38,069 bases of DNA, from positions 1 to 38,069 of IMG/VR virus record IMGVR_UViG_3300035698_023701. The stretch is one strand, 5' to 3'. Every line of letters starts with the position of its first letter. Position 1 is the stretch's first letter. The position numbers and the translations under genes were made by a program. Below, piece by piece: positions 2,746 to 35,797 of the stretch. The stretch comes from a virus. Below the pieces are notes generated by a model. That model did not search any database and was not told where the DNA came from. It worked only from the letters and a program-made list of their open reading frames with translations.

Positions 2746-2974
2746 AACTAATGACGAGGCCTACTTTAGTTGTATCGTATCGAGAATCATCGGGGTGAAG
2801 ATCGGCGAAGTCCCCGGTATATGTGTATCTATTACTTGTTGGGGTTACTCGTTCTTCTTTTAGATAACGTAGACTATCACACCCGGAGTTGTCGTTCTGG
2901 ATGTATATTTTAGTTGTGCCGCCGTGCTTCTTTTTCATCTCTTTTAGTATTTTTATAGTATCGTCAATGTCCAT
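2744..2974 (-). CDS. Hypothetical protein, 76 aa
   Basis: A small soluble protein starting MDIDDTIKILKEMKKKHG. GAGAGG is placed 5 nt before the ATG, which overlaps the upstream stop as TAATG. It has an N-terminal amphipathic helix, then beta-rich polar sequence (TKIYIQNDNSGCDSLRY), and a VGLVIS tail. I do not recognise the family. The protein is the last gene of a two-gene unit ending in the hairpin at 2727-2745. Confidence 0.7.
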   Translation of the reverse strand: MDIDDTIKILKEMKKKHGGTTKIYIQNDNSGCDSLRYLKEERVTPTSNRYTYTGDFADLHPDDSRYDTTKVGLVIS

Positions 2975-3156
2975 TATGTCCTCTCTTTGTTTATTTTATG
3001 GGCATCTTCTCTGAATCTATCGAGAAACTTGGTTCTTTGTGTCGTCCCCATACAGTCAATAATGGATCGAGCTACTTTGTGGGAATACCCGTTCTTTTCT
3101 GATAGATATTTGGATGCCAAGAATCGGGCAGTTTTTGTTGTCTTGTTTTTACTCAT
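2974..3156 (-). CDS. Hypothetical basic protein, 60 aa
   Basis: The frame is open to a GTG at 3207, but ATG 3154-3156 (MSKNKTTKTARFLASKYL) is preferred, because upstream sequence falls in a hairpin-rich leader. The protein is strongly basic and helical (SHKVARSIIDCMGTTQRTKFLDRFRED), so nucleic-acid binding is possible but unproven. The stop overlaps the ATG of the next gene, which implies translational coupling. Confidence 0.65.
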   Translation of the reverse strand: MSKNKTTKTARFLASKYLSEKNGYSHKVARSIIDCMGTTQRTKFLDRFREDAHKINKERT

Positions 3157-3323
3157 AGGTATCTCTTTTTCATTACCGAAAAAGAGGAGCTTTCGCGAGT
3201 ACTTCACGAAAGCAGGTCTTCTTAGGAGCCCGAAGCAACTTCAGTATGTCTGAAGTTCAACTTGTTCTCTGCCTGTCCGGAAGGTACGCTGTCCTCTTTG
3301 GCACGATATTAGATATGCGTGTC
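3157..3323 (-). other. Hairpin-rich leader
   Basis: This non-coding interval, transcribed ahead of the 60-aa gene, holds three perfect stem-loops: 3164-3185 (8-bp TCTTTTTC/GAAAAAGA), 3189-3213 (7-bp GCTTTCG/CGAAAGC) and 3237-3257 (7-bp AACTTCA/TGAAGTT). No gene is convincing here. A structured 5' leader is the simplest reading. Confidence 0.55.
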
Positions 3324-3361
3324 CATAACCAAAAAAGAGAGAGCCCCCGTCATAATTGACG
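3324..3361 (-). terminator. Hairpin + TCTCTTTTTTGGTTATG box (site 2)
   Basis: Stem CGTCA/TGACG (3348-3361) is followed on the minus strand by GGGGGCTCTCTCTTTTTT, then GGTTATGGAC. The U-tract supports termination. The conserved GGTTATG is not explained by termination alone. Confidence 0.75.
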
Positions 3362-3392
3362 AGGACCCAGAGGAGAGATAGTAGTAGAGCGT

Positions 3393-3818
3393 TTATACGG
3401 TGGCTGATTCAGGGAAGTCTGCGTTACCGTTTGATGCTGCTGCTGAAGCTGTTTTTGCTTCATTGGCTTCTCGTTGTGCTTTTACCAGAGGATCTTCATA
3501 AGACTTAGGATCTCTGTATTGTACGAGTTGGGCACCACCATTCCGGCCTTTGAATGAGCTGGAACTGAGTTTGGTTAACTTCTTCTGATCAATGATACCT
3601 TCTTCAATACCACGAAGTCCAGCTTTCACTGAGATGGTTGCATCTGCAGGGGCTTCGGGAAGTGATTCCAGGACATCCTTTAGCTTCAATGCCGCGGTTC
3701 TTGGTCGAATCTCGAGGCTTCTGTCTTCGTTTTCAGAGATATCAAAGTTCTTGAGATTCTCTTCTGTTACTGCGCCTGTCTTCATGAAGAAAGCCAGATT
3801 GTCTTTTCGAATTACCAT
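3393..3818 (-). CDS. Hypothetical protein, 141 aa, low-complexity tail
   Basis: AGGAG lies 7 nt before the ATG. It starts MVIRKDNLAFFMKTGAV, followed by an acidic helical segment, a middle rich in Lys/Leu (LKLKDVLESLPEAP), a small Gly/Ser patch (SSSSFKGRNGGAQLVQYRDP) and an Ala-rich tail (EAKTASAAASNGNADF). It is soluble, with no membrane segment and no recognisable catalytic motif. It forms a single-gene unit between two terminator-box elements. A hairpin GGGTAT/ATACCC (3857-3872) lies in its leader. The composition resembles phage virion accessory or scaffold-like proteins, but that is only an impression. Confidence 0.65.
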   Translation of the reverse strand: MVIRKDNLAFFMKTGAVTEENLKNFDISENEDRSLEIRPRTAALKLKDVLESLPEAPADATISVKAGLRGIEEGIIDQKKLTKLSSSSFKGRNGGAQLVQYRDPKSYEDPLVKAQREANEAKTASAAASNGNADFPESATV

Positions 3819-3876
3819 GTGTGCACTCCTGTGAGTTAATATAGATTTAATTTACTGGGTATCTTTATACCCATCC

Positions 3877-3910
3877 CATAGCCAAAAAAGAGGGCCTTAC
3901 TCATCCCTCT
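3877..3910 (-). terminator. Hairpin + CTCTTTTTTGGCTATG box (site 3)
   Basis: Stem AGAGGG/CCCTCT (3889-3910) overlaps the stop of the membrane-protein gene. The minus strand continues CCTCTTTTTTGGCTATGGG. Confidence 0.75.
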
Positions 3911-4142
3911 GATCTTCTATATTCTCATTTGTAGTTTTAGGCTGGCGGAGTATATGTGGAATAACCACAATTATTCCCGCAATAATGAGGAAGAAGAAGT
4001 TTCCGGTGAGCAGGGCCGCAGTCATCACAATGAATGCAATGGCTGGGCCTGCTCCTGATTTATTGTTCGGTTCCACGTTTGAGATCTTTATCAACGATAG
4101 ACTGGATTTGAGCTTTATAAGCTTTCTCAGCATCTCCATCAT
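3897..4142 (-). CDS. Small membrane protein, up to 81 aa, start uncertain
   Basis: The long frame starts at 4142 and overlaps the upstream gene by 83 nt. An AGGAG inside the upstream stop region suggests a later start near codon 30-40, for example ATG before TAALLTGNFFF. The solid part is a hydrophobic stretch LLTGNFFFLIIAGIIVVIPHIL (one or two membrane helices), followed by a short charged tail ending EDQRDE. The N-terminal 25 residues of the long version may be a shadow of the other frame. Neighbouring genes also encode small membrane proteins, so this may be a membrane or lysis cassette, but no lysin is nearby. Confidence 0.6.
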   Translation of the reverse strand: MMEMLRKLIKLKSSLSLIKISNVEPNNKSGAGPAIAFIVMTAALLTGNFFFLIIAGIIVVIPHILRQPKTTNENIEDQRDE

Positions 4143-4308
4143 TGATCTGTTTGGCAGCGTTGAGTTTGATTTTTAGTTCTTCCAAACGTGATTGTTTTGA
4201 TGATACATGTACTTCAGGAATAGTGATAGTCGGCATCTTTGATCCAACCGTATTTATCCCATTGTCGATCATCTCACCGAGTCGTGCAAGAGCTGTTTTA
4301 GCACCCAT
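4060..4308 (-). CDS. Hypothetical helical protein, 82 aa
   Basis: GGAGG is placed about 7 nt before the ATG (MGAKTALARLGEMIDNG). Residues 20-40 are beta-like (MPTITIPEVHVSS), and the rest is a charged helix with heptad-like spacing (SRLEELKIKLNAAKQI...), consistent with a short coiled coil. It has no membrane segment. It sits between genes for small membrane proteins and may be their soluble partner, which is inference. Confidence 0.7.
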   Translation of the reverse strand: MGAKTALARLGEMIDNGINTVGSKMPTITIPEVHVSSKQSRLEELKIKLNAAKQINDGDAEKAYKAQIQSIVDKDLKRGTEQ

Positions 4309-4360
4309 TAGAGTACCTCCAACATAGATTTAGATAGCGGTGAATCGTGGAGAGGCCATC

Positions 4361-4397
4361 CATAACCAAAAAAGAGAAGCCCCCGGGCAAGGGACTT
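4361..4397 (-). terminator. Hairpin + TTCTCTTTTTTGGTTATG box (site 4)
   Basis: Imperfect stem AAGCCCC/GGGACTT (4377-4397) at the stop of gene 4396-4749, followed on the minus strand by TTCTCTTTTTTGGTTATGG. Confidence 0.75.
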
Positions 4398-4749
4398 AGG
4401 CTTTAGCTGTGTTGGCAGTTTTTGCCTTCTTCTCTTTCTTTCTCTTTGGTGGCATAATCATACAATGTGCATATTTATCTTTGGTATACATTGGAAGGAA
4501 TATTCCAACTAGAACAGATGATAATAGATTTGCCATACCTGCTACCATACCTTGACCTGTAAAATACCCTATCATATTTGATATAACAAGGTTGATTACG
4601 AATGCAACAATTGAGTTGTTGAACATTTTGAATAATCCTATTCTCAATGATGCGGGTTTGGTTTTTTCAAAGATCTTTAGTACATTTATCATAATTGATG
4701 TGGTTATAATGATATTTACCACTGTAAGTATTATTCCGGTTGTGAGCAT
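4396..4749 (-). CDS. Three-helix membrane protein, 117 aa, holin-like
   Basis: Hydrophobic segments lie at about residues 4-25, 46-66 and 69-90. They are followed by a Lys/Arg-rich cytoplasmic-type tail (PPKRKKEKKAK). The AGGAGG overlaps the stop of the upstream 40-aa membrane gene, so the two are coupled. Three helices with a basic tail resemble class I holins in topology, but no sequence motif proves it and no endolysin gene is adjacent. An alternative is a host-membrane takeover protein. Confidence 0.65.
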   Translation of the reverse strand: MLTTGIILTVVNIIITTSIMINVLKIFEKTKPASLRIGLFKMFNNSIVAFVINLVISNMIGYFTGQGMVAGMANLLSSVLVGIFLPMYTKDKYAHCMIMPPKRKKEKKAKTANTAKA

Positions 4750-4758
4750 GAGTGCCTC

Positions 4759-4881
4759 CTACTTACCACGTATTTTCTTCTTGATAACTTGACCAATTAT
4801 TGATAGTAAGGCTACGATACAGAATACGGTAAACCATATGCAAAGTAGATATATAATATTGTTTGCAATTTCTTGGTCCAT
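4759..4881 (-). CDS. Single-helix membrane peptide, 40 aa
   Basis: The ATG at 4879-4881 has AGGAGG 5 nt upstream. The protein begins MDQEIANN, followed by about 22 hydrophobic residues (IIYLLCIWFTVFC onward) and a basic end IKKKIRGK. Its TAG stop is embedded in the SD of the next gene. An acidic N-terminus, one helix and a basic C-terminus suggest an N-out inner-membrane peptide. It could be the partner of the three-helix protein encoded immediately downstream. Confidence 0.75.
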   Translation of the reverse strand: MDQEIANNIIYLLCIWFTVFCIVALLSIIGQVIKKKIRGK

Positions 4882-4904
4882 AACTACCTCCTGGTAATAT
4901 TAGT

Positions 4905-4947
4905 CATAGCCAAAAAAGAGAACCCCCGCCGGGTAGCAGGGATTCTC
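4905..4947 (-). terminator. Hairpin + TTCTCTTTTTTGGCTATG box (site 5)
   Basis: Stem GAGAACCC/GGGATTCTC (4918-4947), then TTTTTTGGCTATG on the minus strand, 24 nt before the start of the 40-aa gene. No coding region immediately precedes it on the minus strand. Confidence 0.7.
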
Positions 4948-5349
4948 AGAGACAACAACAAGAAGACTTAACATTATAGGAGATGTTATGAATGCTGCAA
5001 CAGCCGGCAGGATGCCCACCGACTGAGGGATACTCACTATAAACTATCGGGAGTCACTTTCCAGTAAAGGAGTATCTATGTTCACTGGGACTATTTCCAA
5101 TAGTTCATATATAAGATAACAGGAAGTTACTTCTCAATCAAGTAATCCCGTGAACGAAATTCCTGGATGGTATGATGACTTTTATTATGTTTGACTGATG
5201 GTCCATATTGACAATTTTATTGATATTTTCGTAGTGAATACTTTTGAATTTGATATCAACTTTAATGAATTTGGGTATGGTGAAAGCACATGTTCGGTTA
5301 ACTGGTTTGGTACCAAAGTTTATTATTATATGCGTCCACATAGAATTCT
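4948..5349. other. 400 nt without a convincing gene
   Basis: Short inverted repeats occur (for example ACTATTtccAATAGT and TTACTTctcaatcAAGTAA). On the plus strand two good SD-ATG pairs start in one frame (4988 and 5078), but it is broken by TGA, TAA and TGA before a 69-codon open stretch at 5198-5407. On the minus strand a 67-codon ORF (5138-5341) lacks a well-placed SD. This may be a decayed gene or a structured RNA. I annotate neither ORF. Confidence 0.4.
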
Positions 5350-5377
5350 AAAAAGGCTCCACTTCAGGGTGGGAGCC
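5350..5377 (-). terminator. Classic intrinsic terminator
   Basis: Stem GGCTCC/GGAGCC (5355-5377) is followed on the minus strand by TTTTT (5354-5350). It is a second terminator immediately after the box element of the outer-membrane-protein gene. Confidence 0.85.
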
Positions 5378-5382
5378 GGACC

Positions 5383-5416
5383 CATAACCAAAAAAGAGAG
5401 GCTATAATACCCCTCT
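5383..5416 (-). terminator. Hairpin + CTCTCTTTTTTGGTTATG box (site 6)
   Basis: Stem AGAGG/CCTCT (5397-5416) overlaps the stop of gene 5415-5888. It is followed on the minus strand by CTCTTTTTTGGTTATGGG and then by the separate terminator at 5350-5377. Confidence 0.75.
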
Positions 5417-5888
5417 AAAATTCATATCCAATAGTAAATTGAGTATGGTTTGGTTCGGAATACAATGTATATAAATCTTTAAAATCTTGAGTTGTACTTG
5501 AGTAGCCGATAAGATCTCTCTGAGGTGTTATTACGTGATGTGAACAGGTATGTTCAACACGAAAGTATACGTGTTTAACTATTTTGAGTTCACCACCAAT
5601 TGTATACTTATCTTGAAATGGTAATCCTGACACATTATCTGAATTTCCCATTTGAAACATGGTTTGCCATCCAGCATAAGGTCGAAGACTGATATAACTT
5701 TTGAACTTGAATAGGTAACCTACTTCTACATCAGTTTGATGATAGTCACCAACCTGGTCGTAAGTATATTCTAAATGTCCGGTAAGATTACCAGAAAACG
5801 CACCGAGTTTAAATTCGGCAAATGCTGGTATTGATACAGCAATAGACAGTAGTATTGTAAACATTAGTGTAATTTTGAATTTTCTCAT
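5415..5888 (-). CDS. Secreted outer-membrane beta-barrel-like protein, 157 aa
   Basis: A signal peptide is visible: MRKFK, then a hydrophobic core (LMFTILLSIAVSIPAFA) with an AFA-E cleavage site. The mature part has alternating polar/hydrophobic strands (GNLTGHLEYTYDQ, DVEVGYLFKF, ISLRPYAGWQ, YTIGGELKIV, VYFRVEHTC) and ends FTIGYEF. A terminal Phe is the hallmark of Gram-negative outer-membrane proteins recognised by BamA. Its size suits an 8-strand barrel. A phage gene of this kind may modify the host surface or block superinfection (compare lambda Lom by analogy only). AGGAG precedes the ATG. Confidence 0.8.
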   Translation of the reverse strand: MRKFKITLMFTILLSIAVSIPAFAEFKLGAFSGNLTGHLEYTYDQVGDYHQTDVEVGYLFKFKSYISLRPYAGWQTMFQMGNSDNVSGLPFQDKYTIGGELKIVKHVYFRVEHTCSHHVITPQRDLIGYSSTTQDFKDLYTLYSEPNHTQFTIGYEF

Positions 5889-5917
5889 AGTGCATCTCCT
5901 TTGATATTATTATACTT

Positions 5918-5948
5918 CATAACCAAAAAAGAGGACCCGGAGATCCTC
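5918..5948 (-). terminator. Hairpin + CCTCTTTTTTGGTTATG box (site 7)
   Basis: Stem GAGGA/TCCTC (5931-5948), then TTTTTTGGTTATGAAG on the minus strand, about 30 nt before the outer-membrane-protein start codon. Confidence 0.75.
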
Positions 5949-5958
5949 AGTATATCTT

Positions 5959-6210
5959 TTATGAGTAGATAATCGATATTGCAACTTCTTCACCTTTTAA
6001 CTTAGCAGCTTTGATCATTTGATACGCGGTTTGGAAGTTGAAACTCATGATTCTTCCTGGTAATGTTGTTGGAAGTAACAGATACGCTTGGCGCATGTGT
6101 ATTAATTTGGCAGCTTCATAAATTGATAGATTATCAATATCTATTGGTTTTCCATCAACCGTGAGTTCTTTGATAGCTCCATCTCTTCTTTTTATAACTG
6201 GTAATTTCAT
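5959..6210 (-). CDS. Hypothetical protein, 83 aa
   Basis: AGGAGG lies 6 nt before the ATG. The sequence MKLPVIKRRDGAIKELTVDG is followed by a helical part (NLSIYEAAKLIHMRQAYLLL) and another helix (FQTAYQMIKAAKL) ending in a strand VAISIIYS. It is soluble, mixed alpha/beta and of unknown family. It forms a single-gene unit bracketed by two box elements. Confidence 0.7.
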   Translation of the reverse strand: MKLPVIKRRDGAIKELTVDGKPIDIDNLSIYEAAKLIHMRQAYLLLPTTLPGRIMSFNFQTAYQMIKAAKLKGEEVAISIIYS

Positions 6211-6238
6211 GGAACACCTCCTAGTGTAATGTATATTC

Positions 6239-6273
6239 CATGACCCAAAAAGAGAGGCCGTTAGCGCACCTCT
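6239..6273 (-). terminator. Hairpin + CTCTCTTTTTGGGTCATG box (site 8)
   Basis: Stem AGAGG/CCTCT (6253-6273) at the stop of gene 6261-6446. The minus strand continues CTCTTTTTGGGTCATGG, a two-base variant of the box. Confidence 0.7.
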
Positions 6274-6446
6274 TTTACTATTTTCATCTTGAGATCAAAG
6301 AGCATTGATTTGCGTTCTTTGAGAGCTTTGACGATGTCCTTTTCCCAGGGTAGCTGTCGGAGATCTTCTATTTGACGGGTTACTTTACTGACTTCACACA
6401 TGAGAAGATATTCAAGTGTGCTAGTTTCTTTACCAGATAGTTTCAT
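6261..6446 (-). CDS. Hypothetical helical protein, 61 aa
   Basis: ATG 6444-6446 is chosen because GGAG is placed 6 nt upstream. Longer alternatives would start inside the box or SD region. The sequence MKLSGKETSTLEYLLMCEV continues into a charged helix (SKVTRQIEDLRQLPWEKDIVKALKERK) ending KIVKEVR. It is probably an all-helical, dimer-forming protein. Function is unknown. Confidence 0.7.
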   Translation of the reverse strand: MKLSGKETSTLEYLLMCEVSKVTRQIEDLRQLPWEKDIVKALKERKSMLFDLKMKIVKEVR

Positions 6447-6466
6447 GATATTCTCCATGTAGTATT

Positions 6467-6495
6467 CATAACTCAAAAAGAGAGCCCCGCAGGGC
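6467..6495 (-). terminator. Hairpin + CTCTCTTTTTGAGTTATG box (site 9)
   Basis: Stem GCCC/GGGC with tetraloop (6484-6495), directly after the stop of gene 6497-6799. Box variant TTTTTGAGTTATG on the minus strand. Confidence 0.7.
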
Positions 6496-6496
6496 C

Positions 6497-6799
6497 CTAG
6501 AAAAAGTTGGGTACAATGTAATCTGTTGAATTATTCATTGTTTCGATAGAATGTTCTTTGAGTTGTTCAAGCAGTGTATCAATATCTTTGGCAACTTGGT
6601 ATGGATGTAAATCTATTTTAGTAGATTCATCTTCTTTGTTTAACATGGTACATTCTATTGTAATAATAAGTTTTGATTCGTTCTTGAATTCGTAAGCTTT
6701 GAGTCCGAGAACTTTACACTCATGGTGTATTTTGTCGCCGAATATGCAGACAATACTATCTTCTGCAGTGAGCGGGTGCTGGATGTATTTATTACTCAT
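6497..6799 (-). CDS. Hypothetical protein, 100 aa
   Basis: The frame is open to 6943, but ATG 6797-6799 (MSNKYIQHPLTAEDSIVC) has AAGGA upstream and overlaps the end of the preceding gene by only 8 nt. A longer start would overlap it by 152 nt. The protein has beta-strand character (SIVCIFGDKIHHECKVLGL, SKLIITIECTMLN) followed by a helix (VAKDIDTLLEQLKEHSIE). It is unrecognised, and is coupled to the upstream membrane-anchored gene. Confidence 0.7.
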   Translation of the reverse strand: MSNKYIQHPLTAEDSIVCIFGDKIHHECKVLGLKAYEFKNESKLIITIECTMLNKEDESTKIDLHPYQVAKDIDTLLEQLKEHSIETMNNSTDYIVPNFF

Positions 6800-7046
6800 G
6801 AGATCTTCCTTGTAGATATTGATTAGGAACTGGGACATTGTATCGGTGTGCCAGTTTTCTGAGATCTTCCGTCCCGTAGGGAAGGTTTTCTTTATCCCAG
6901 GTTTGAATATGACAGACAAAGCCTTCATAATCTTGTTTCTCATCTGGATTAAAGTTCATTGGGGCTCCTTTGTCCGCTATTTTGCTGCCGATAATCATTC
7001 CTATAATACAGAGGGAACCGGCGAAAGCAGATATTAATATTTCCAT
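6792..7046 (-). CDS. N-terminally membrane-anchored protein, 84 aa
   Basis: AAGGAG lies 7 nt before the ATG. Residues 2-20 form one hydrophobic helix (EILISAFAGSLCIIGMIIG). The rest is a soluble tail with GFVCHIQTWDKENLPYG and DLRKLAHRYNVPVPN. The upstream half could also be a signal anchor. Function is unknown. Its end overlaps the next gene by 8 nt. Confidence 0.7.
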   Translation of the reverse strand: MEILISAFAGSLCIIGMIIGSKIADKGAPMNFNPDEKQDYEGFVCHIQTWDKENLPYGTEDLRKLAHRYNVPVPNQYLQGRSHE

Positions 7047-7095
7047 ATAAATCTCCTTCAGGGTATACCCTTAAATAATTTGATATTTTTCAGGT

Positions 7096-7130
7096 CATAA
7101 CCTTAAAAGAGAGCCCTTAGACTCTCTCTT
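7096..7130 (-). terminator. Hairpin + CTCTCTTTTAAGGTTATG box (site 10)
   Basis: Stem AAGAGAG/CTCTCTT (7107-7130) overlaps the stop of gene 7117-7380. The minus strand continues TTTTAAGGTTATGACC. GGTTATG is conserved although the T-run is shortened. Confidence 0.7.
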
Positions 7131-7380
7131 CAGGGTGTTTGATGTTCCAGAATATTATAATACTCCGGAGTGTTTTCTTATAACGTATGACATTTATCAT
7201 GCGTTTATTTTGTTGTACTGCTTCTTTATTGTTGGCTATTAGCCACGCTCCTTTTATTAGATCAGGATGCTGACTGTTAATAACTTTTAGAGCTTCTTGA
7301 CGGAGTCCCTTCAGGCTTGTAGCTTTGGGCCAGTCTTTAGGGTCTACGAGAGTTTTGTGTTGCAGATCGCCAATGATCAT
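7117..7380 (-). CDS. Hypothetical protein, 87 aa
   Basis: ATG 7378-7380 is chosen because GGAGG is placed about 6 nt upstream; the frame is open nine codons further. The sequence MIIGDLQHKTLVDPKDWPKA is followed by helices (LKGLRQEALKVINSQHP, GAWLIANNKEAVQQNKRMINVIRYKK). A hydrophobic patch near the end (SIIIFWNIKHP) may be a strand. The protein is basic and unrecognised, in a single-gene unit. Confidence 0.7.
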   Translation of the reverse strand: MIIGDLQHKTLVDPKDWPKATSLKGLRQEALKVINSQHPDLIKGAWLIANNKEAVQQNKRMINVIRYKKTLRSIIIFWNIKHPEERV

Positions 7381-7404
7381 AATATACCTCCGTGAGAGTA
7401 TTAT

Positions 7405-7438
7405 CATAACTTTAAAAGAGAAGACCCCGAAGGGCCTT
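7405..7438 (-). terminator. Hairpin + TTCTCTTTTAAAGTTATG box (site 11)
   Basis: GC-rich arms AAGACCC/GGGCCTT (7421-7438) around GAA, just after the stop of gene 7442-7624. Box variant TTTTAAAGTTATG. Confidence 0.7.
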
Positions 7439-7441
7439 TCT

Positions 7442-7624
7442 TTAGTGAATACTTTCTTTTATTTGGATAATCAGGGTCTGCATGGTACTTGCTATATTGC
7501 TAAGGGCAGATCCTTGTATTATTAAGGCAGCAGCAACAGTGGCAACGGTTGGGTCATTTGATTCCATAGATTCTGTTAATACTTCAATAGCTCTGTCAAG
7601 GTCCTGATTTGATATTTCAGCTAT
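7442..7624 (-). CDS. Hypothetical 60-aa protein with apparent ATA start
   Basis: This reading frame lacks ATG, GTG or TTG at its 5' end. GGAG (minus strand) is followed 9 nt later by ATA at 7622-7624, then AEISNQDLDRAIEVLTES. The product is a plausible two-helix protein (PTVATVAAALIIQGSALSN, MQTLIIQIKES), and its TAA stop sits at the usual distance from a terminator box. It fills an otherwise empty slot between two boxes. The alternatives are initiation at the internal ATG (codon 20) or a sequence change that destroyed the start. Confidence 0.55.
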   Translation of the reverse strand: MAEISNQDLDRAIEVLTESMESNDPTVATVAAALIIQGSALSNIASTMQTLIIQIKESIH

Positions 7625-7650
7625 AGTTATACACTCCTGTAATATGTATT

Positions 7651-7676
7651 CATTTCCAGAAAAGAGAAGAACTTCT
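7651..7676 (-). terminator. Hairpin + TTCTCTTTTCTGGAAATG box (site 12)
   Basis: Stem AGAAG/CTTCT (7665-7676), then TCTCTTTTCTGGAAATG on the minus strand, a diverged copy. It lies between gene 7685-7867 and the ATA-start gene. Confidence 0.6.
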
Positions 7677-7684
7677 GGGATCTT

Positions 7685-7867
7685 TCATTTTAATAATATC
7701 AGGGAACTCATTTCTATTTGCTTAATACTCACGATAGGAATAGTTCTTAAATCATGATACTGAGTAACTCCATCTATCCCCGTAAATGAGCGGGTAATGG
7801 TATGTATTTCGGGATCTATTATTTCTTCCTTTAATAGAACTTTAATAGTAGATTCACTTAATAGCAT
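7685..7867 (-). CDS. Hypothetical protein, 60 aa
   Basis: ATG 7865-7867 has GGAGG about 6 nt upstream; the frame is open 32 codons further without SD support. The sequence MLLSESTIKVLLKEEIIDPE is followed by beta-rich sequence (IHTITRSFTGIDGV, LRTIPIVSIKQIEM) ending SSLILLK. It is a single-gene unit. No family is recognised. Confidence 0.65.
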   Translation of the reverse strand: MLLSESTIKVLLKEEIIDPEIHTITRSFTGIDGVTQYHDLRTIPIVSIKQIEMSSLILLK

Positions 7868-7896
7868 AGAATACCTCCAAACTTGTTTAATATATT

Positions 7897-7914
7897 CATA
7901 ACCCATAAAGAGGG
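7897..7914 (-). promoter_or_regulatory. Box without hairpin: CCCTCTTTATGGGTTATG (site 13)
   Basis: A GGTTATG-type box lies about 30 nt upstream of gene 7685-7867. I see no preceding gene and no stem. A box without a gene to terminate argues that the conserved part has a role for the downstream gene. Confidence 0.5.
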
Positions 7915-8370
7915 AACACTCACGAATCATTTTATACTCTATTGCATAGGGGCTAGTAAGCAATACATTTATTAAGCTTCAAACAGGATACAGTAGAGGG
8001 CCAGTAATCGCGACATAGGATATATTTAGATTTATCAGCTCGTACCTTTAGATTCATCAATCTGCAATAGATTTATCAACTCGTATCCCCATAGATTTAT
8101 CAACTCGTACCCGGTTCGTACCACAACTTCGTGTAAACTTCTAAATGTTATGACACCGTTCTGGGTATTTATTGATCTTTTTGGTCTTCCTTGGTGTTTA
8201 TTGGGTCTTCAGAGGTCTTATGTCGGGCTTCTGCCGTAGGCGTGCAGGAATGAGGGGGAAGGGCTATGTGAAGTTTGTGGTAGATGTATCGGGTATATGT
8301 AGGCTTTAAGTAGGATAGGTGTCGGGTATATGGAGAGTTTTATCCAGTGGGTGATAGAAGTAGACTTATT
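7915..8370. other. 455-nt non-coding region with direct repeats
   Basis: I see no credible gene. The minus-strand ORF at 8218-8400 would start with a GTG inside a terminator stem. The left part contains the direct repeats at 8027-8112. The right part is G/T-rich on the plus strand. It is the longest gene-free stretch of the left cluster, and could be a replication origin or control region. Confidence 0.5.
8027..8112. repeat. Direct-repeat cluster (iteron-like)
   Basis: Three near-identical copies of TAGATTTATCAACTCGTACC (one or two differences each) start at 8027, 8068 and 8092. A degenerate copy starts at 8049 (TAGATTCATCAATCTGCA). Spacing is 19-24 nt, about two helical turns. A short CGTACC(CGGTT)CGTACC repeat follows the last copy. 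The arrangement fits a protein-binding iteron or operator array. Confidence 0.7.
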
Positions 8371-8404
8371 TCTTAAAAGTGAGAGCCCGAAGACTTTCAC
8401 TTTT
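8371..8404 (-). terminator. Terminator after the 25-codon ORF
   Basis: Perfect 8-bp stem AAAAGTGA/TCACTTTT (8375-8404) lies 12 nt after the stop of ORF 8416-8493. The minus strand ends in CACTTTTAAGAAATAAG, a strongly diverged relative of the box. Confidence 0.75.
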
Positions 8405-8415
8405 GGTACCTGGGA

Positions 8416-8493
8416 CTACTTGCCGAATCTGGATTTTGAGAACATTACTTCGCCACGCTTGTTTACACGGTAGTATTTTGTTGATTTGTTCAT
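8416..8493 (-). CDS. Tiny ORF, 25 aa, basic
   Basis: The product MNKSTKYYRVNKRGEVMFSK ends SRFGK. A GGGAG lies about 6 nt before the ATG, and a strong terminator follows the stop. The frame stays open upstream without a start codon (…NILFTDDGWEPT before the Met), so the real gene could be longer if a non-standard start or a lost start is involved. It is a small basic peptide of unknown role. Confidence 0.45.
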   Translation of the reverse strand: MNKSTKYYRVNKRGEVMFSKSRFGK

Positions 8494-8543
8494 GGTTGGC
8501 TCCCAGCCATCATCCGTGAATAGTATATTTGGGATTCCGTTCC

Positions 8544-8580
8544 CATGGCCAGGAAAGAGAAAGCCCCCGGCAGGGGACTT
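8544..8580 (-). terminator. Hairpin + TTTCTCTTTCCTGGCCATG box (site 14)
   Basis: Stem AAGCCCCC/GGGGACTT with one mismatch (8561-8580), 4 nt after the stop of gene 8584-9117. The box is diverged (CTCTTTCCTGGCCATGG). Confidence 0.7.
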
Positions 8581-8583
8581 ATG

Positions 8584-9117
8584 TTAGTGCAGATGGGAGC
8601 CATCATCTGGAGTATCCGGTTTATTCGGTTTATCTGAAGAATTAAGAATATCTTTTAGGGTTTCTTCTGCTTCGGCATCTTCCAGCTTTGCTGCCAGTTC
8701 TTCCGGTGTTATCTTGGATACCGTGGCACCTAGTAGTTTAGCCATTACTTTCAGCAACGGGGATGTATCGGTATCAAGACCCGCGATGCCTGCAGCGTGT
8801 TGGGCTTGATGAGTTTCAGTCATGAGAGCGCCCGTGAAGAGCCTCTGAATGATCGGGGATTCTTTACTGATATGTTCTACTATTTCAGCTAATTCCCATA
8901 TTTCATCAGGTCCACTAATTACGTTAATGGAAATATATTTCATCATTTCTTCGAATTCCACTTGAATCGGGAAACTGAGTATATGGTCTTCAGAGAGTCC
9001 AATACATCCATGATTAGTTTTGGTATCATGGTTCCATTTTCCAGTACATCCGGCGTTGTCCATCATCTGTTTGATATTTGCGATATGCTTCTTTATTGTT
9101 TCATCTATAATAAACAT
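8584..9117 (-). CDS. Hypothetical protein, 177 aa
   Basis: ATG 9115-9117 has GGAG 7 nt upstream; the frame is open 21 codons further. The N-terminus MFIIDETIKKHIANIKQMMDNAG is helical, followed by CTGKWNHDTKTNHGCIGLSED and a beta-like middle (HILSFPIQVEFEEMMKYISINVISGP). The C-terminal third is acidic, helical and low-complexity (EELAAKLEDAEAEETLKDIL), with a Pro/Asp tail ending DDGSHLH. No motif is recognised. The acidic tail resembles assembly or chaperone-type phage proteins, but this is weak. Confidence 0.65.
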   Translation of the reverse strand: MFIIDETIKKHIANIKQMMDNAGCTGKWNHDTKTNHGCIGLSEDHILSFPIQVEFEEMMKYISINVISGPDEIWELAEIVEHISKESPIIQRLFTGALMTETHQAQHAAGIAGLDTDTSPLLKVMAKLLGATVSKITPEELAAKLEDAEAEETLKDILNSSDKPNKPDTPDDGSHLH

Positions 9118-9237
9118 AAGTATTCTCCATAAAAATAGAATTATAAGAGCATGGGGGTTTAGGTCGTACCCCCGAACCAATTATTCCCGTCTGTTCCACC
9201 GGGGACTAGAAAGCCACCACTCACCATGAGTAGAGGT

Positions 9238-9303
9238 CATAGCCAAAAAAGAGAGGCCGGGTATCATCACATAGTTGGGTCTAGAGCCCTGCATGTATGA
9301 TAC
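9238..9303 (-). terminator. Long hairpin + CTCTCTTTTTTGGCTATG box (site 15)
   Basis: Arms GTATCAT (9261-9267) and ATGATAC (9297-9303) enclose the end of the 9267-9470 ORF. The GGCCTCTCTTTTTTGGCTATG box follows on the minus strand. Confidence 0.65.
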
Positions 9304-9470
9304 ATCTCTTTGGCCTTTTTCTCTTTACTACACCGGTTTCCTAGATCCTGTAGATTTAACTGGATCCAGTAAGCTGTTTTTCGTGGTACAGCTAACCATA
9401 AGTCATCATACTTCTTATACGCCAGTGATCCCAACCGCTGGTAAACCATTGAGAGGGATGCTTCCCACAC
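9267..9470 (-). CDS. Hypothetical basic protein, up to 67 aa, start unclear
   Basis: The stop at 9267 is placed next to a box element exactly as in neighbouring genes, which supports this frame. The first start in frame is GTG 9468-9470 (MWEASLSMVYQRLGSL) without an SD. The frame stays open upstream for 21 more codons (QAPYELRFNTCVPQV) with no ordinary start. The product is basic and helical (AYKKYDDLWLAVPRKTAYW, SKEKKAKEMYHTC). A programmed shift from the overlapping frame, or a non-standard start, is possible. Confidence 0.5.
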   Translation of the reverse strand: MWEASLSMVYQRLGSLAYKKYDDLWLAVPRKTAYWIQLNLQDLGNRCSKEKKAKEMYHTCRALDPTM

Positions 9471-9637
9471 CTGGGGAACGCACGTATTGAACCGAAGTTC
9501 GTATGGAGCTTGTATGATGCTTGATTATTTCCTGGAGACGAGCCTTGAATCTGGCGATCATATCTCCGGAGCTTCCATGTTTTAATCACTGTTCTGAGAA
9601 CGATGTAAGTAAGAGAACTGTGGTCGTAACCACCCAT
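9392..9637 (-). CDS. Overlapping alternative ORF, 81 aa
   Basis: This frame (MGGYDHSSLTYIVLRTVIK...) overlaps the previous ORF in another frame. The third frame is also open over 48 codons from an ATG preceded by GGAG (9556 downward). Only the N-terminal 40 codons of this ORF lie outside the overlap. It may be the true start of a gene whose 3' part is in the 9267 frame. Low confidence. Confidence 0.3.
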   Translation of the reverse strand: MGGYDHSSLTYIVLRTVIKTWKLRRYDRQIQGSSPGNNQASYKLHTNFGSIRAFPRCGKHPSQWFTSGWDHWRIRSMMTYG

Positions 9638-9922
9638 GCGAAACCGAAGTTATCACATCAGAGCAAAGTACACTCTTTCTCCACTGCCTGAAAAGAGAAG
9701 GGAGAGGACACAATAAACAATACCCAATAAAGAATCAATAAGAAAGCAGGATAGAGGGGAAGGGCTTTGGTCTTTGCCTTTGCCTTTGCTTTGGTCTTTT
9801 CTTAGCCTTTGAGCCTACAGGCTCCCAAAAATACCCCGATGAATCGGGCTGGCAGAGGACTTAGCCGCACATGCAAGACCCCCGAAAGGGTCAAGCACCT
9901 ATGGCGAAGGGGAAACTATCAA
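9638..9922 (-). other. 3' region of the RNAP-like gene with tandem hairpins
   Basis: No gene is seen. Three small hairpins follow the stop of the 814-aa gene in order: 9877-9892 (GACCC/GGGTC), 9835-9848 (CCCGA/TCGGG, followed on the minus strand by GTATTTTT) and 9811-9824 (GAGCC/GGCTC). The middle one is a good intrinsic terminator. An imperfect CTTTGCC repeat (about 9766-9800) and a degenerate box (9673-9697) complete the region. Confidence 0.65.
9835..9848 (-). terminator. Intrinsic terminator downstream of RNAP-like gene
   Basis: Stem CCCGA/TCGGG, then GTATTTTTGGG on the minus strand, the best of three consecutive hairpins after the gene. Confidence 0.7.
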
Positions 9923-12367
9923 CTACTCTTCAAGTGAAGGGCAGAAGATAGAAAGGTAGTACTTAGCTTCCCAAGAACCATTCTTATCTTTCTGGTAACG
10001 CTTTCCAGCATTCTTGTGAAACCCAGCAAGAAAGTCGTTCAGGTCATAGTCACCCAATATTTGCGGCAACTGAACCAGAAACTTTGTGGACCCGATAAGC
10101 TTCTTCGGGTTGGCACAGAGAATGTTAGTAGCTAAATACTTCAAGGCACCAGCTGCAACATCAACGTCTTTCATCTCTGTAAGCTTAAGGAACAAATCCT
10201 TTTGCTCATCAAAGATGGCATCACGCTCATCATTATCAGTAGCTTTACTAAGCTTACTGGTAATTTCTTTGTATGCTTTAACCAGACGTTTAGCCAAAAG
10301 AACAGCAGCCGGACGTCGGAGTTCCATACTTTCGAGCTGGGTACCCCATGTTGAAAGGATATAATTCCCAACAACATGTTTGGACAGATACTCGGGAGCA
10401 AGAACATCCTGAATTTCTGATACGCGCATGAAGCCACCACGATTAAGACCATGTTCTTTTAACCAGCCCTGCTCATGGGGAGCAAGAACTGAGAATACGT
10501 TCTTTAACCGCTGAACTCTTACGAATTCGGCAACTTCTCTCTCCTCATCTGTCAGTGGTCCCTTTGTTTCTCTGTAGTCCAGAGGATCTTCCACACGCTC
10601 ATAACTGGTAACAGCTATGTTGGGAAGAATGACATAAGGAATCACAGCAAGGAGAGCAAGACACAGTTTACCAAGACGACCGGTATACTCAGCACATTTA
10701 ATCCGCGCTTCATCAACCAGTTCGTGGTAACTGTCAAGATCCTCAAACTTACCACCAAGAAGGCGATAAATAGAAGGAGACTTCTCACCTGAGGGTTCAG
10801 GGAGAATAGTAGACTTCTTCGCATGATCAACTGCTGCCTGTACCTTAGAGATACAGTCAATGGTATCGGTGCTAAGAAGTGGAGTGCCTGTATTGGACAT
10901 GATGTACGAAATACTTACATCGTTGTCACAGAACGCAACCATAGTCTTACTGGCTACCTGCTTAATACAAGCGTCAAGGACAGAGAAGTCCCGGGTTTCT
11001 CCAATGATGGCATCTTCAACAGATCCACCAAAGGCCTTGTTCAGCTGGCTAACCCGCTTTTGATAGTGAGTCTTGCTGATAAATGGAAACTCTACCACTG
11101 TGATAGAATCTCCATCAGTGTCACCAACCAATAGATCCATGATCTCCTGGCTGACACGAAGTTCCCCATGCTGCACATATCCGACGACCTCACAAGGAGG
11201 GACGAATTCAGTGGCGATGGTAGGTGAACGGAACATACCTGGTATAAAAGAACCAACCGGGTATTTCTTTCTGTACTTAGAATTGACCATAACTTTCATT
11301 CCTTTAAGCTTACTGTCAGTGACAGCATAGACTTTACGGGAAAGAGTCGTTACTTTCAGATTGTTCTTAAGATACAGAACAGTCATTTTGGCCATATCTT
11401 GCGGGGTAATAGGAAGCCCTGCACGGTACAGACGCTCAACAGTGCTGGCAAATTCGTTGTTCTCCAGCCCATCGATTCCATCGCGGATATTAAAGATCCG
11501 GTCAAGAAGAGCATGTCCAGATGAGAGATCACCAGCAAGATTCATACCCATAGTTCGGATCATGCTAAGAAGTTCATTAAAACCCTTCTCAGTCATAACT
11601 TCTATCATACGGAATACTGCTTGCCATGGAACTTTCATCTGTTTAGATCTTCCCTTAGTTTCAAGAGAGGATCCTTGCTGATAGAGTGCTACCTGGACAA
11701 TAGAGCCCACGGTAATACCCTTCAGTTTAAAGCCATTGGAGTTAATGTAAAAATCTACATTAGCTTCTCTGACTTTCGCGGGAACATCCCACTTCTCAGC
11801 AGGTATGGCCATTCCCTTGAATATAGCAGCGGCATGAGACATTTGGCCTTTGCCATCAAGTTCATAACCAGTCATCTGGAATGGAGAGAACCGCTCCAGG
11901 TGCTGAGCAAGGAGGCTTCCAGCTACATAGTAGCCATGGCCATCCTCAGGACCATCAATGATCTTGACAGTCACAATGCTTAGAAATTGGCTCGTTTCTT
12001 GCAGCCTAAATCCAAGCTTAGCTCTACGGCAAGGATCGCCATAGGTGGAGTCCATACCCTGACCGTTGTCAGCAAATATGAGTTCCAAGTCCAGATAGTT
12101 ACCGTATCTGGTCCTGCGAAGCTCAGAAGAATTCCGTACACAAGGTACAAGTTTCTTATTAAGCTTCTGCTCCATAGCACGGACAGTATGGGTAAGTTCT
12201 GAAACCTTAACCATACCAGTGCTAGCTACGACAAGTCCTCTATACATGGACCCTAACCCACGTAGAGGCTTATCAGTATCCTCAACTGTATCACCAGTAA
12301 GGAAATCAACTACCGGTACTGTGGTACCAGTAATAAGACGGGTAAAACGTTTAGTGTTCTCTTTCAT
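9923..12367 (-). CDS. Putative single-polypeptide RNA polymerase with DxDGD motif, 814 aa
   Basis: ATG 12365-12367 has GGAGG about 7 nt upstream. Residues 380-420 hold RSPTIATEF..., a strand CEVVGYVQ, then LLVGDTDGDSITVVEF. The order 'R-x-P-T ... hydrophobic strand ... DxDGD ... V' is that of the second double-psi beta barrel, which carries the metal-binding aspartates in cellular RNA polymerase beta' (NADFDGD), in YonO and in QDE-1-type enzymes. Candidate Mg-binding Asp residues are D416, D418 and D420. Residues about 208-250 (GFKLKGITVGSIVQV, then KGRSKQMKVPWQAV) could be the first barrel with its conserved lysines. The length fits YonO-like enzymes. The rest is helical and not recognised. 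The assignment is from motif order only. A replication or repair protein with a chance acidic motif is the alternative. Confidence 0.6.
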   Translation of the reverse strand: MKENTKRFTRLITGTTVPVVDFLTGDTVEDTDKPLRGLGSMYRGLVVASTGMVKVSELTHTVRAMEQKLNKKLVPCVRNSSELRRTRYGNYLDLELIFADNGQGMDSTYGDPCRRAKLGFRLQETSQFLSIVTVKIIDGPEDGHGYYVAGSLLAQHLERFSPFQMTGYELDGKGQMSHAAAIFKGMAIPAEKWDVPAKVREANVDFYINSNGFKLKGITVGSIVQVALYQQGSSLETKGRSKQMKVPWQAVFRMIEVMTEKGFNELLSMIRTMGMNLAGDLSSGHALLDRIFNIRDGIDGLENNEFASTVERLYRAGLPITPQDMAKMTVLYLKNNLKVTTLSRKVYAVTDSKLKGMKVMVNSKYRKKYPVGSFIPGMFRSPTIATEFVPPCEVVGYVQHGELRVSQEIMDLLVGDTDGDSITVVEFPFISKTHYQKRVSQLNKAFGGSVEDAIIGETRDFSVLDACIKQVASKTMVAFCDNDVSISYIMSNTGTPLLSTDTIDCISKVQAAVDHAKKSTILPEPSGEKSPSIYRLLGGKFEDLDSYHELVDEARIKCAEYTGRLGKLCLALLAVIPYVILPNIAVTSYERVEDPLDYRETKGPLTDEEREVAEFVRVQRLKNVFSVLAPHEQGWLKEHGLNRGGFMRVSEIQDVLAPEYLSKHVVGNYILSTWGTQLESMELRRPAAVLLAKRLVKAYKEITSKLSKATDNDERDAIFDEQKDLFLKLTEMKDVDVAAGALKYLATNILCANPKKLIGSTKFLVQLPQILGDYDLNDFLAGFHKNAGKRYQKDKNGSWEAKYYLSIFCPSLEE

Positions 12368-12372
12368 GAGAG

Positions 12373-12389
12373 CACCTCCTATTAATGTT
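12373..12389 (-). promoter_or_regulatory. Shared leader/SD element 1
   Basis: AACATTAATAGGAGGTG lies just before the start of the RNAP-like gene. Nearly the same 17 nt precede the next two minus-strand genes, so the conservation reaches beyond the SD itself. Confidence 0.65.
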
Positions 12390-12412
12390 GTATGCGAAGT
12401 ACGCATATAGAG

Positions 12413-12445
12413 AGGCCCTATATAGAGGGTATCCATATAAGGCCT
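12413..12445 (-). promoter_or_regulatory. Hairpin in the RNAP-like gene leader
   Basis: Arms AGGCC-TATAT and ATATA-GGCCT with one mismatch lie about 45 nt upstream of the start codon. There is no U-tract, so this is more likely a regulatory structure than a terminator. Confidence 0.45.
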
Positions 12446-12483
12446 TACTATCTGAGCACTGCTATGTTGAGCTATTACTACCT

Positions 12484-12531
12484 ATAGAGAAGGCCCCTAT
12501 AGAAGGGGGTCTATATGGACCTCTTCTCTAT
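12484..12531 (-). promoter_or_regulatory. Nested hairpin at the stop of the 116-aa gene
   Basis: The outer 9-bp arms ATAGAGAAG/CTTCTCTAT enclose an inner CCCC/GGGG stem. The TAG stop at 12497 lies inside. It may attenuate or terminate transcription entering the RNAP-like gene, or protect the 3' end. Confidence 0.6.
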
Positions 12532-13837: not shown

Positions 13838-14904
13838 TGGATATTCTATTATTTATAAAGTTCATAATCGGTATTGTTATTTTTATTTGTGTGTGTTTAC
13901 CTTTTACTAATAAATTATATAATCAAAAAAAGAATATAACCCCACTACAGAATACAGTAATTAATGATAATATAAGGAAACCGGATATTAGTTTCTATCA
14001 CCCGGGGGCTATGGAATATACTCTTCTTTATATTGAAAATAAGATTTCTTTGGAACAACGATTACTTCTAGAACTGTTACTTTCATATCCTAAATCTAAT
14101 ATTGATATTAAAGATAAAAATAGTATACCTTCTACTCGACCTGTTACTGATTCATATAATCAGACTTATTCTGTACTTGTTAATAATCATCCAAGTTTAG
14201 ATAACCGAGTATATTATCAACATTACTTCTATTCTCATTCTGGGTTCGTATTAAATCTTAAGGATCATTTTTGTGATCAGTTAATGAAATCTAAAATGAA
14301 GGTACCTGATAATATTGATATTAATGGCCCGTTACATATATCAAATTTAATAATTATTAAACCTATATTAAATGCTCTTAATACTCTTTTAGATATAATC
14401 ATTGAAGAAGACCTATCTGAAATACGGTCTATATTCTTAACTAACCTGGATGTTGAGATGCGTATTTTATTTAATGAAATCAACAAAGACATAGAGGATC
14501 TTGAGTCTACAGCCCGGTCTGGTTATAAAATATCTTCCGGATTAAATTCTAGTATATCAGTAATAAATCTGGATAAGTTTATCACCACCAATTTGCTTTT
14601 TCAGGTTTTACCATTTGGTGAAGTCCCCATCCTTGATATGTTAAGAGGTCACCCGAGCGCCTATGAAGATATGCCGTTTTCTATTAAGATGGAAATACCC
14701 ATGGTGTTTAAGCATTTGGAATATGTAAAAAAACTTGTGGGTAATGGTCTTGAATATAGAATAGCCGAGAAGGATAAGATGATGAGCCAATATATCAAAG
14801 AGGTCACCGACTATAATTCTAAGGATAACTGGTATTTTATATCGTCCCTTAGTGGACTTAATATAAATCTTTTTAATAGTCTAAAAGACGATATTCAATC
14901 ATGA
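13837..14904 (+). CDS. Membrane-anchored protein, 355 aa, with PFS module
   Basis: The N-terminus is a single hydrophobic helix (residues 4-22, LLFIKFIIGIVIFICVCLPF), followed by a large helical soluble part rich in Ile/Asn/Asp. Near residues 258-292 it carries LPFGEVPILDMLRG, then EDMPFSIKMEIPMVFKHL, the module shared with three downstream genes and, in weaker form, with the left array. It has no known catalytic motif. The start overlaps the upstream stop, and the stop overlaps the next start (ATGA). It probably sits at the inner membrane, facing the cytoplasm. Confidence 0.7.
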   Translation: MDILLFIKFIIGIVIFICVCLPFTNKLYNQKKNITPLQNTVINDNIRKPDISFYHPGAMEYTLLYIENKISLEQRLLLELLLSYPKSNIDIKDKNSIPSTRPVTDSYNQTYSVLVNNHPSLDNRVYYQHYFYSHSGFVLNLKDHFCDQLMKSKMKVPDNIDINGPLHISNLIIIKPILNALNTLLDIIIEEDLSEIRSIFLTNLDVEMRILFNEINKDIEDLESTARSGYKISSGLNSSISVINLDKFITTNLLFQVLPFGEVPILDMLRGHPSAYEDMPFSIKMEIPMVFKHLEYVKKLVGNGLEYRIAEKDKMMSQYIKEVTDYNSKDNWYFISSLSGLNINLFNSLKDDIQS

Positions 14905-18557: not shown

Positions 18558-18823
18558 GGTATCATATCTTTAATAAGAGTGGTAAGATCTTTTATATTAA
18601 ATATATTTTCATGAATACCTATTGATCCATCTGCTTGGGCTCGACACGGGCTGGTAACTTCAAAAACATTACCACCATTAATAAAAACAAGTTTTCCTGG
18701 TTCGTTATTAACCCATTCTACAACATAAAACCGGTCACCCCGTTCAAGAGATTCCAGGGTAACCGGTTTGTCATTGTGATAAATAAAGGGCACTATTTTG
18801 CGACTTATGTCACCATTTGTCAT
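18554..18823 (-). CDS. SH3-like small protein, 89 aa
   Basis: It contains LERGDRFYVVEW, then KLVFINGGNVFEV, the 'GD-x-hxVxxh ... hxhxxGxxhxV' pattern of a small SH3-like or KOW-type barrel, then a helix FNIKDLTTLIKDM. The start overlaps the stop of the phosphoesterase (ATGA). It is the distal gene of a two-gene unit with the phosphoesterase and may modulate it or bind RNA (inference). Confidence 0.65.
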   Translation of the reverse strand: MTNGDISRKIVPFIYHNDKPVTLESLERGDRFYVVEWVNNEPGKLVFINGGNVFEVTSPCRAQADGSIGIHENIFNIKDLTTLIKDMIP

Positions 18824-19608
18824 TTTGAATAGATCTTTCCATTTAGCATCGATCGATCGCTGTCCATTATTACTACTGGACTATAATGAAATTCATTTGT
18901 TTCTTTATGTAAATAGAAAAGACCCATTGATTGAGAACCATTAAATAGCTCAGGATGTTTGGAATATGATACTTTGTCCAAGGCCATAATAGTTCCTATT
19001 TGAACAGCCAGGCGGGTTTTCCCTGATTGTCTAATAACCTCAAAACCGGTTGAATGGGAATGAAACTTAACAATGGATACGGCCGCGTCTTTTACCAAAG
19101 CTCTGGATTTGTTTACCGGGCAGCGGGCACTTCCTCCCATTCCTGGTCCGTCTCCATGAAGAAATAGAATTTCTTCTTTCCAATTATAGGAATCTACCAG
19201 TTTCCAATCAACATCATCAAGTTTTAAGAGTGATTTAGGTGAGAGTTCCTGAAGCTCGGCTAGCCAGTAATTCTCAGTTTTTTGTATAAAGTCATCAAGG
19301 CGCCGAATGAAGTGATTGTCTTTTAATATATATTTGCGAGAGTTAGGAGAAACTTGTTGAATCTGTTGTCTCCAGATATAATCAATCTGGAATTCAAAAG
19401 CAGCTCCTAACATCTGTGCATGTGTTTTTTTGAATTTTGAAAGACAGTCGGTACTGATCATATCACCACCATCAATGATAATGTCAGGGTCAACATCTTC
19501 AAGCATTTCAAGAATCATCTTATCTGTTTTTTCACAATGATATGGTACATGCCGATCACCAAAAGTAAATAAAATATCAAACTCATCTCGCGTTCCTTTA
19601 TCAATCAT
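18820..19608 (-). CDS. Calcineurin-like metallophosphoesterase, 262 aa
   Basis: The motifs appear in order: GDRHVPYH (D-x-H site), DIIIDGGDM (GD site), LKDNHFIRRLDD (in place of GNHD/E), LHGDGPG, and FHSHSTG (terminal H-x-H). This is the two-metal phosphoesterase fold that hydrolyses phosphodiesters or phosphomonoesters. The Asn-His pair is present, but the usual GN is replaced by DN. The SD is AAGGGG. Roles in phages include nucleotide or nucleic-acid processing; the substrate cannot be inferred. TTGACA lies about 70 nt upstream on the minus strand without a clear -10. Confidence 0.8.
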   Translation of the reverse strand: MIDKGTRDEFDILFTFGDRHVPYHCEKTDKMILEMLEDVDPDIIIDGGDMISTDCLSKFKKTHAQMLGAAFEFQIDYIWRQQIQQVSPNSRKYILKDNHFIRRLDDFIQKTENYWLAELQELSPKSLLKLDDVDWKLVDSYNWKEEILFLHGDGPGMGGSARCPVNKSRALVKDAAVSIVKFHSHSTGFEVIRQSGKTRLAVQIGTIMALDKVSYSKHPELFNGSQSMGLFYLHKETNEFHYSPVVIMDSDRSMLNGKIYSK

Positions 19609-35772: not shown

Positions 35773-35797
35773 TGCAATTTAAGTGAGGTAATACAAT

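Follow-up and report, generated by a model that had tools for sequence, protein, structure and literature searches.

A putative, strongly diverged single-chain RNA polymerase gene beside a promoter-like array in a bacterial virus related to Bacillus phage 0305phi8-36

The stretch of DNA analysed here (the window) is the linear IMG/VR virus record IMGVR_UViG_3300035698_023701, 38,069 bases long, from a virus of bacteria. On its minus strand lies a gene for an 814-residue protein that very probably encodes a single-chain, two-barrel RNA polymerase (RNAP), followed by a block of small unannotated genes with promoter-like sites between them (Table 1). The longest open reading frame (ORF) at the locus, 9923-12436, would give 837 residues from an alternative upstream start at 12436. 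The ATG at 12367, which the first-pass annotation had taken as the start, is the better choice because a canonical Shine-Dalgarno (SD) sequence stands shortly upstream.

The RSPT and DxDGD motifs named in that annotation are present, with the aspartates correctly numbered 416, 418 and 420. A DxDxD(G) triad with RxP about 35-45 residues before it is the sequence-level mark of the two-barrel superfamily, and the protein carries it. Residues invariant in YonO-type proteins comprise DG(xG), KG, the lysine in TKSxFK, RxP, DxDxD and (I/V)DxAK, and the window protein has its motifs in the matching order: D171GKG, K216G, T237KGRSK242, R380SPT, D416TDGD and V513DHAKK. A further proposed match, WQ/YQ behind the first barrel, was dropped for its wrong spacing. 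The superfamily signature, DxDGD or a variant with a DGxGxIS-like motif in the first barrel, is shared by crAss-like gp66 and by the eukaryotic QDE-1/RNA-dependent RNA polymerases (RdRP); gp66 is much longer than the window protein, QDE-1/RdRP is eukaryotic, and the likeness described here is one of signature.

Directly downstream of the gene and on its strand, 16 near-identical copies of YTCTCTTTTTTGGTTATGR (short form CTCTTTTTTGGTTATG) are spread over positions 3169-9699. All of them score at least 19 bits, against 13.9 for the best site elsewhere in the window. The copies occupy the gaps between the small genes, most of them 2-23 nucleotides (nt) past the preceding stop, and the start codons that could be located mostly follow 20-58 nt downstream. 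About half of the copies are preceded by a hairpin (those at 3875, 7649 and 7895 have none), and a GG-T-TATG stretch past the T run is strongly conserved. No CTCTTTTTTGGTTATG-type site precedes the RNAP gene in the window; upstream of the gene stand three copies of another repeat, CTATANGGGCCTNCTCTATA (0.06 expected by chance), possibly a promoter or operator of another class.

Table 1. Position, strand and remarks for the features discussed (window coordinates; DPBB, double-psi barrel).
Feature	Position	Strand	Remarks
Putative single-chain two-barrel RNA polymerase gene, 814 aa	9923..12367	-	ORF, start, motifs, profile
Ribosome-binding site (AATAGGAGGTG; SD AGGAGG) and ATG start of RNAP gene	12365..12385	-	
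D416-T-D-G-D420, predicted metal-binding triad of DPBB-A	11108..11122	-	profile
R380-S-P-T (residues 380-383), conserved RxP(T/H/N) of DPBB-A	11219..11230	-	36 residues before triad
V359MVNSKYRKKYPVG, proposed first strand-helix half of DPBB-A	11252..11293	-	by eye, against P23-45 gp96 IVIGKEMAAKLGLKEG
D171-G-K-G, DGxG motif opening DPBB-B in YonO-type enzymes	11846..11857	-	motif match
K214LK216G217; K216-G217 matched to invariant YonO K271-G272, proposed catalytic lysine	11717..11728	-	register by eye
T237KGRSK242, matched to YonO TKSQFK316, proposed second basic residue	11642..11659	-	register by eye
V513DHAKK, matched to (I/V)DxAK of YonO-type RNAPs and IDMAKK of the G001 counterpart	10814..10831	-	
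Repeat CTATANGGGCCTNCTCTATA (up to 3 mismatches), copy 1	12406-12425	-	upstream of RNAP gene
Repeat CTATANGGGCCTNCTCTATA, copy 2	12483-12502	-	upstream of RNAP gene
Repeat CTATANGGGCCTNCTCTATA, copy 3	12511-12530	+	upstream of RNAP gene
Promoter-like site 1	9680..9699	-	weakest, 19.3 bits; first after RNAP gene
Promoter-like site 2, CTCTCTTTTTTGGCTATGAC	9236..9255	-	
Promoter-like site 3	8542..8561	-	
Promoter-like site 4	7895..7914	-	
Promoter-like site 5	7649..7668	-	
Promoter-like site 6	7403..7422	-	ATG with SD 24 nt downstream
Promoter-like site 7	7094..7113	-	
Promoter-like site 8	6465..6484	-	start codon 20 nt downstream
Promoter-like site 9	6237..6256	-	start codon 28 nt downstream
Promoter-like site 10	5916..5935	-	start codon 29 nt downstream
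Promoter-like site 11	5381..5400	-	exact consensus
Promoter-like site 12	4903..4922	-	start codon 23 nt downstream
Promoter-like site 13	4359..4378	-	exact consensus
Promoter-like site 14	3875..3894	-	
Promoter-like site 15	3322..3341	-	exact consensus, after strong hairpin
Promoter-like site 16	3169..3188	-	after strong hairpin
About 15 small unannotated genes, promoter-like sites between them	2974..9637	-	
Metallophosphoesterase	18820-19608		
PD-(D/E)XK nuclease	19753-23115		
Terminase with LAGLIDADG intein	26865-29903		
Portal	32285-34132		
Capsid, start	37372-		

The weight of the motifs was gauged by shuffling. DxDGD alone arose in 2,537 of 200,000 shuffles of the window protein (1.3%), RxP together with DxDGD in 0.09%, and RxPT with DxDGD at about the observed spacing in five of 200,000. 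The ordered pattern DGxG-KG-RxP-DxDGD-hDxAK appeared in none of 200,000 shuffles. A check of 750 long sequences gave it only for the window protein (with its locus copy) and for three YonO-type RNAPs. The pattern was written after known RNAPs had been seen, and is therefore supporting rather than independent evidence. Database-wide, the pair of catalytic motifs is not specific: RxPT-x32-DxDGD occurs in 74 distinct IMG/VR proteins, 36 of them clear RNAPs and 38 of them non-RNAPs, some terminase-like. The motif is thus a lead, the profile test decides more, and the 38 non-RNAP carriers make a good control set.

The main profile was built from 46 RNAP catalytic barrels, with the window protein excluded, and was used to search 3,274 sequences including reversed decoys. 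The window protein was recovered with E=4.5e-4, directly after the true RNAPs and above all reversed decoys, one of which was the best non-RNAP at E=0.33. The match is single and ungapped and spans both RxPT and DxDGD in 50 residues. When segments were scored against this profile, none of the 38 motif-matched chance proteins exceeded 7.7 bits, compared with 21.8 for the window protein. A smaller profile of 20 sequences gave E=0.055, likewise ahead of all decoys. The earlier reading of R-x-P-T...DxDGD as the order of a catalytic DPBB is supported by these scores.

Ordinary homology searches returned nothing. The protein had no match in Pfam, PHROGs, NCBIfam or the PDB (phmmer), tblastn against phages gave nothing meaningful, and scans of viral and genome contigs with 8-residue patterns turned up no close relatives. 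There was no significant pairwise similarity to YonO, no match when a two-member YonO-family alignment served as scan query, and no significant score (E=2) with a full-length hidden Markov model of single-chain RNAPs. Proven RNAPs also escape such libraries, YonO being missed by Pfam and NCBIfam and P23-45 gp64 by Pfam. The putative enzyme is of a kind already known; the window version is strongly diverged and goes unrecognised by family databases.

The neighbouring genes indicate the lineage. The window terminase and portal are 22-26% identical to those of Bacillus phage KLEB27-3 and Acinetobacter phage ME3, and Moorella phage MTATph1 matches the portal in the same range; closer relatives are IMG/VR contigs with portals 45-47% identical, including the 36-kb G001 and the 150-kb G002. 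The terminase, portal and head proteins of ME3 are annotated as common to Bacillus phage 0305phi8-36, and, judged by terminase and portal, the phage is near the 0305phi8-36 lineage. As a putative one-chain RNA polymerase, gp99 (orf99; Hardies 2007, PMC2147016), has been published for the founder of that lineage, such an enzyme is to be expected in the window's lineage. gp99 is the YonO-like ABS83659.1 of PMC7824862, and 0305phi8-36 is credited with a YonO-like enzyme in a review of jumbo phages. The window's large terminase is split by its intein, and the terminases of KLEB27-3 and Perkons match the intein part as well.

Both G001 and G002 carry a diverged counterpart gene at the same locus, in G001 past the nuclease and a conserved 297-residue gene. 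The nuclease, conserved and syntenic with the RNAP gene, is a protein of 1,120 residues with an N-terminal PD-(D/E)XK domain, followed by a long C-terminal stretch that holds no known domain. The G001 counterpart (832 residues) has RYPNT and DYDTD, spaced by 36 residues as in the window protein, followed by IDMAKK; that of G002 is encoded at 49017-51500 on the minus strand. The segment after the triad aligns between the window and G001 (QAAVDHAKK/QALIDMAKK; z about 5, 0 of 500 shuffles), and the VDHAKK region aligns with the YonO-like L024 (z about 4) and does not align with YonO itself. The barrel segments of G001 and G002 match each other with z of 5 to 7, equalled by one of 500 shuffles in global and none of 500 in local alignment. 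In other respects pairwise comparison fails to connect the three proteins, and the group therefore evolves very fast; MAFFT on the three alone misaligned the motifs, and the register was restored once barrel segments were added.

The two relatives have arrays of their own, and in all three phages the array stands in intergenic gaps just past the gene, on the gene's strand. In G001, exact and near copies of CTCTCTTTTCTTTATG occur on the plus strand only, five of six just after the counterpart gene (34118-35962; the gene ends at 33752). About a dozen CTCTTTTCCATAWATATG-like sites stand beside the counterpart gene of G002 (39816-47944, minus strand), at a looser match level for which about five chance sites are expected per 150 kb. 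The frame CTTTT...TATG is common to the motifs of all three phages and the interiors differ, which is what one would expect were each polymerase to read a form of its own; the arrays may be the cognate promoters of the adjacent putative RNAPs. G001 also contains an exact 60-base duplication with a CTCTCTTTTCTTTATG element and a ribosome-binding site, the copies being 261 bases apart (L030:14134-14193 and 14395-14454).

Among known systems, gp99 of 0305phi8-36 is, like the window protein, a putative one-chain RNAP of a related terminase/portal lineage and monocistronic; compared by its published description, it differs in being recognisable by extended RdRP (PF05183) profiles. 0305phi8-36 has small single-gene transcripts and 14 phage-specific 21-bp promoter candidates in the genome arm of gp99 (PMC2147016), a layout that the window array mirrors. 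YonO of Bacillus phage SPbeta and its relatives in Perkons, Enterocloster and Thomasclavelia phages resemble the window protein in length (839 against 814 residues, in a clade whose single chains of about 800-900 residues hold both barrels), in the order DGxG-KG-TKxxxK-RSP-DxDGD-(I/V)DxAK and in a gene neighbourhood with exonuclease, terminase and portal, whereas the two candidate lysines are more closely spaced in the window protein and no HU-like gene was recognised beside its gene. The non-virion gp64 and virion gp96 RNAPs of Thermus phage P23-45 also carry two barrels on one chain and are not picked up by ordinary searches (PMC10770324), and their compact DPBB-A resembles the one proposed here. 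Each P23-45 enzyme has its own promoter motif, near early genes (PMC10770324). The P23-45 clade is defined by structure, and the likeness implies no specific kinship; in gp96 the enzyme is joined to a tape measure protein, a fusion that the window protein lacks.

Other proteins of the related phages were inspected for similar motifs. KLEB27-3 gp034 (UNY39803.1; L002:35003-42304), a 2,434-residue 'structural protein' with NRYPT...ADYDGD and a weak match to Pfam RNA_pol_Rpb1_2 (E=0.006), is an unannotated candidate virion RNA polymerase of the same lineage. ME3_36 (L004:33160-37980), a hypothetical protein of 1,600 residues that precedes the baseplate hub, contains REP...GGDHDQD and is possibly a virion RNAP with DxDxD. 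A DFDGD in MTATph1 was checked as an RNAP motif, and the protein does not look like an RNAP.

Several results weigh against an RNAP at this locus. When the motif residues are masked as X, the profile score drops to decoy level, so that these residues carry much of the signal. Because such masking is over-punitive, a score that leaves the motif positions out was added. By this score the window protein still ranked above all 30 matched decoys, with -18.3 against -30.8 for the best of them; 279 of 20,000 shuffles did as well, and the window protein stayed far below true RNAPs. By these measures the barrel similarity is real but thin outside the motifs. A full-length profile comparison with YonO (hhalign) gave 19.8, at the background level of 70 real and 60 shuffled controls, with a plausible register; the protein is therefore placed in the superfamily only and not in the YonO family. 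For the lysine-rich possible first barrel of the first-pass annotation, DGxG, KG and TKxxxK occur in the right order, but pairwise tests of this region against YonO were null, so that the second of the two barrels is only inferred. Neither of two AlphaFold runs gave a barrel at useful confidence. The single sequence had a mean predicted local distance difference test (pLDDT) of 34.8; the core reached 48.6 when run with an alignment of 28 rows, made up of the G001 segment and 27 barrel segments of other RNAPs, so that even a good barrel would have carried some circularity. In that model two strands and a helix ahead of the triad stood at about 70 and no barrel formed, and Foldseek of this low-confidence model against the PDB found no match with E<1. 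As close homologues are lacking, the predicted-fold check is uninformative. Finally, the triad of the G002 counterpart, at L041:8001-10469 (G002:C1:49017-51485, minus strand), reads DCDDH, its third aspartate replaced by histidine, which is odd for an essential catalytic site and may reflect an error, an inactive enzyme or an altered metal site.

Some of these results would suit a coincidental match, in which another phage enzyme carries RxPT and DTDGD and its acidic loop binds calcium or is non-catalytic: 38 of the 74 database proteins with the motif at this spacing are not RNAPs, the profile libraries are silent and no confident fold was obtained. We consider this unlikely, given that those chance proteins stay far below the window protein on the barrel profile, that several further motifs follow in order in a fitting lineage and array context, and that the libraries miss proven RNAPs too. 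Variation of the triad among the counterparts (DTDGD in the window, DYDTD in G001, DCDDH in G002) could instead mean that a two-barrel RNAP descendant has lost polymerisation in this group and acts as a DNA-binding or structural factor. This seems highly improbable for a protein that retains three aspartates and the glycine, RxPT and the candidate lysines beside a promoter-like array, with DxDxD kept in two of the three counterparts. The catalytic barrel of an RNAP is the reading we prefer, because the 46-RNAP profile, the further motifs, gp99 in the lineage, synteny and the array agree.

The array itself is open to another explanation, which touches only the promoter part of the proposal and also counts against it. 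If the CTCTTTTTTGGTTATG element were a terminator or RNA-processing signal, it would say nothing on which polymerase is used. A GC-rich hairpin stands immediately before about half of the copies, which also hold a T run; most copies lie close behind a stop codon, and P23-45 has a conserved 26-nt terminator motif. Conservation of GG-T-TATG beyond the T run, the hairpin-free copies and the distance to most located starts, as for a short leader, speak for a promoter. A terminator or processing role carries a substantial, if clearly minor, likelihood, and such a role may also be combined with that of a promoter.

On the reading that we prefer, the window gene would encode a single-chain, DNA-dependent RNA polymerase that belongs with cellular beta/beta', QDE-1, YonO, crAss gp66 and P23-45 gp64 in the two-barrel superfamily, and is probably non-virion and made early in infection. 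D416, D418 and D420 of the second DPBB would bind two Mg ions, the first-barrel lysines, with K216 and K242 as candidates, would hold the incoming nucleotide and the transition state, and the VDHAKK segment would belong to the bridge-helix/trigger-loop part. Transcription would begin at CTCTTTTTTGGTTATG-R sites, the 16 of them lying mostly in the gap before a small gene. Since these sites mostly precede single small genes, we propose that transcripts of the block are short and for the most part carry one gene, and that about half of them end at the hairpins. The RNAP gene, having no CTCTTTTTTGGTTATG site, would be transcribed by another polymerase, either the host's own or a virion RNAP that is injected.

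Single-chain RNAPs of the two-barrel type are central to understanding how transcription originated, and only a few have been characterised from phages. The window enzyme would widen their known sequence range to a point at which only the catalytic barrel is still detectable. Together with its counterparts it may represent a branch of single-chain phage RNAPs, so far undescribed and missed by present profiles, in phages related to the 0305phi8-36 group, each enzyme with a lineage-specific promoter or terminator array beside the gene (CTCTTTTTTGGTTATG, CTCTCTTTTCTTTATG, CTCTTTTCCATAWATATG) that changed along with the enzyme, and with a DxDxH triad in one member; we put this proposal somewhat short of an even chance. 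On the promoter reading, three diverged phages, in each of which both the enzyme and the promoter-like motif have diverged, would form a natural series for promoter recognition by a minimal, sigma-free RNAP, and such short orthogonal enzyme-promoter pairs, at about 90 kDa, would also serve as tools.
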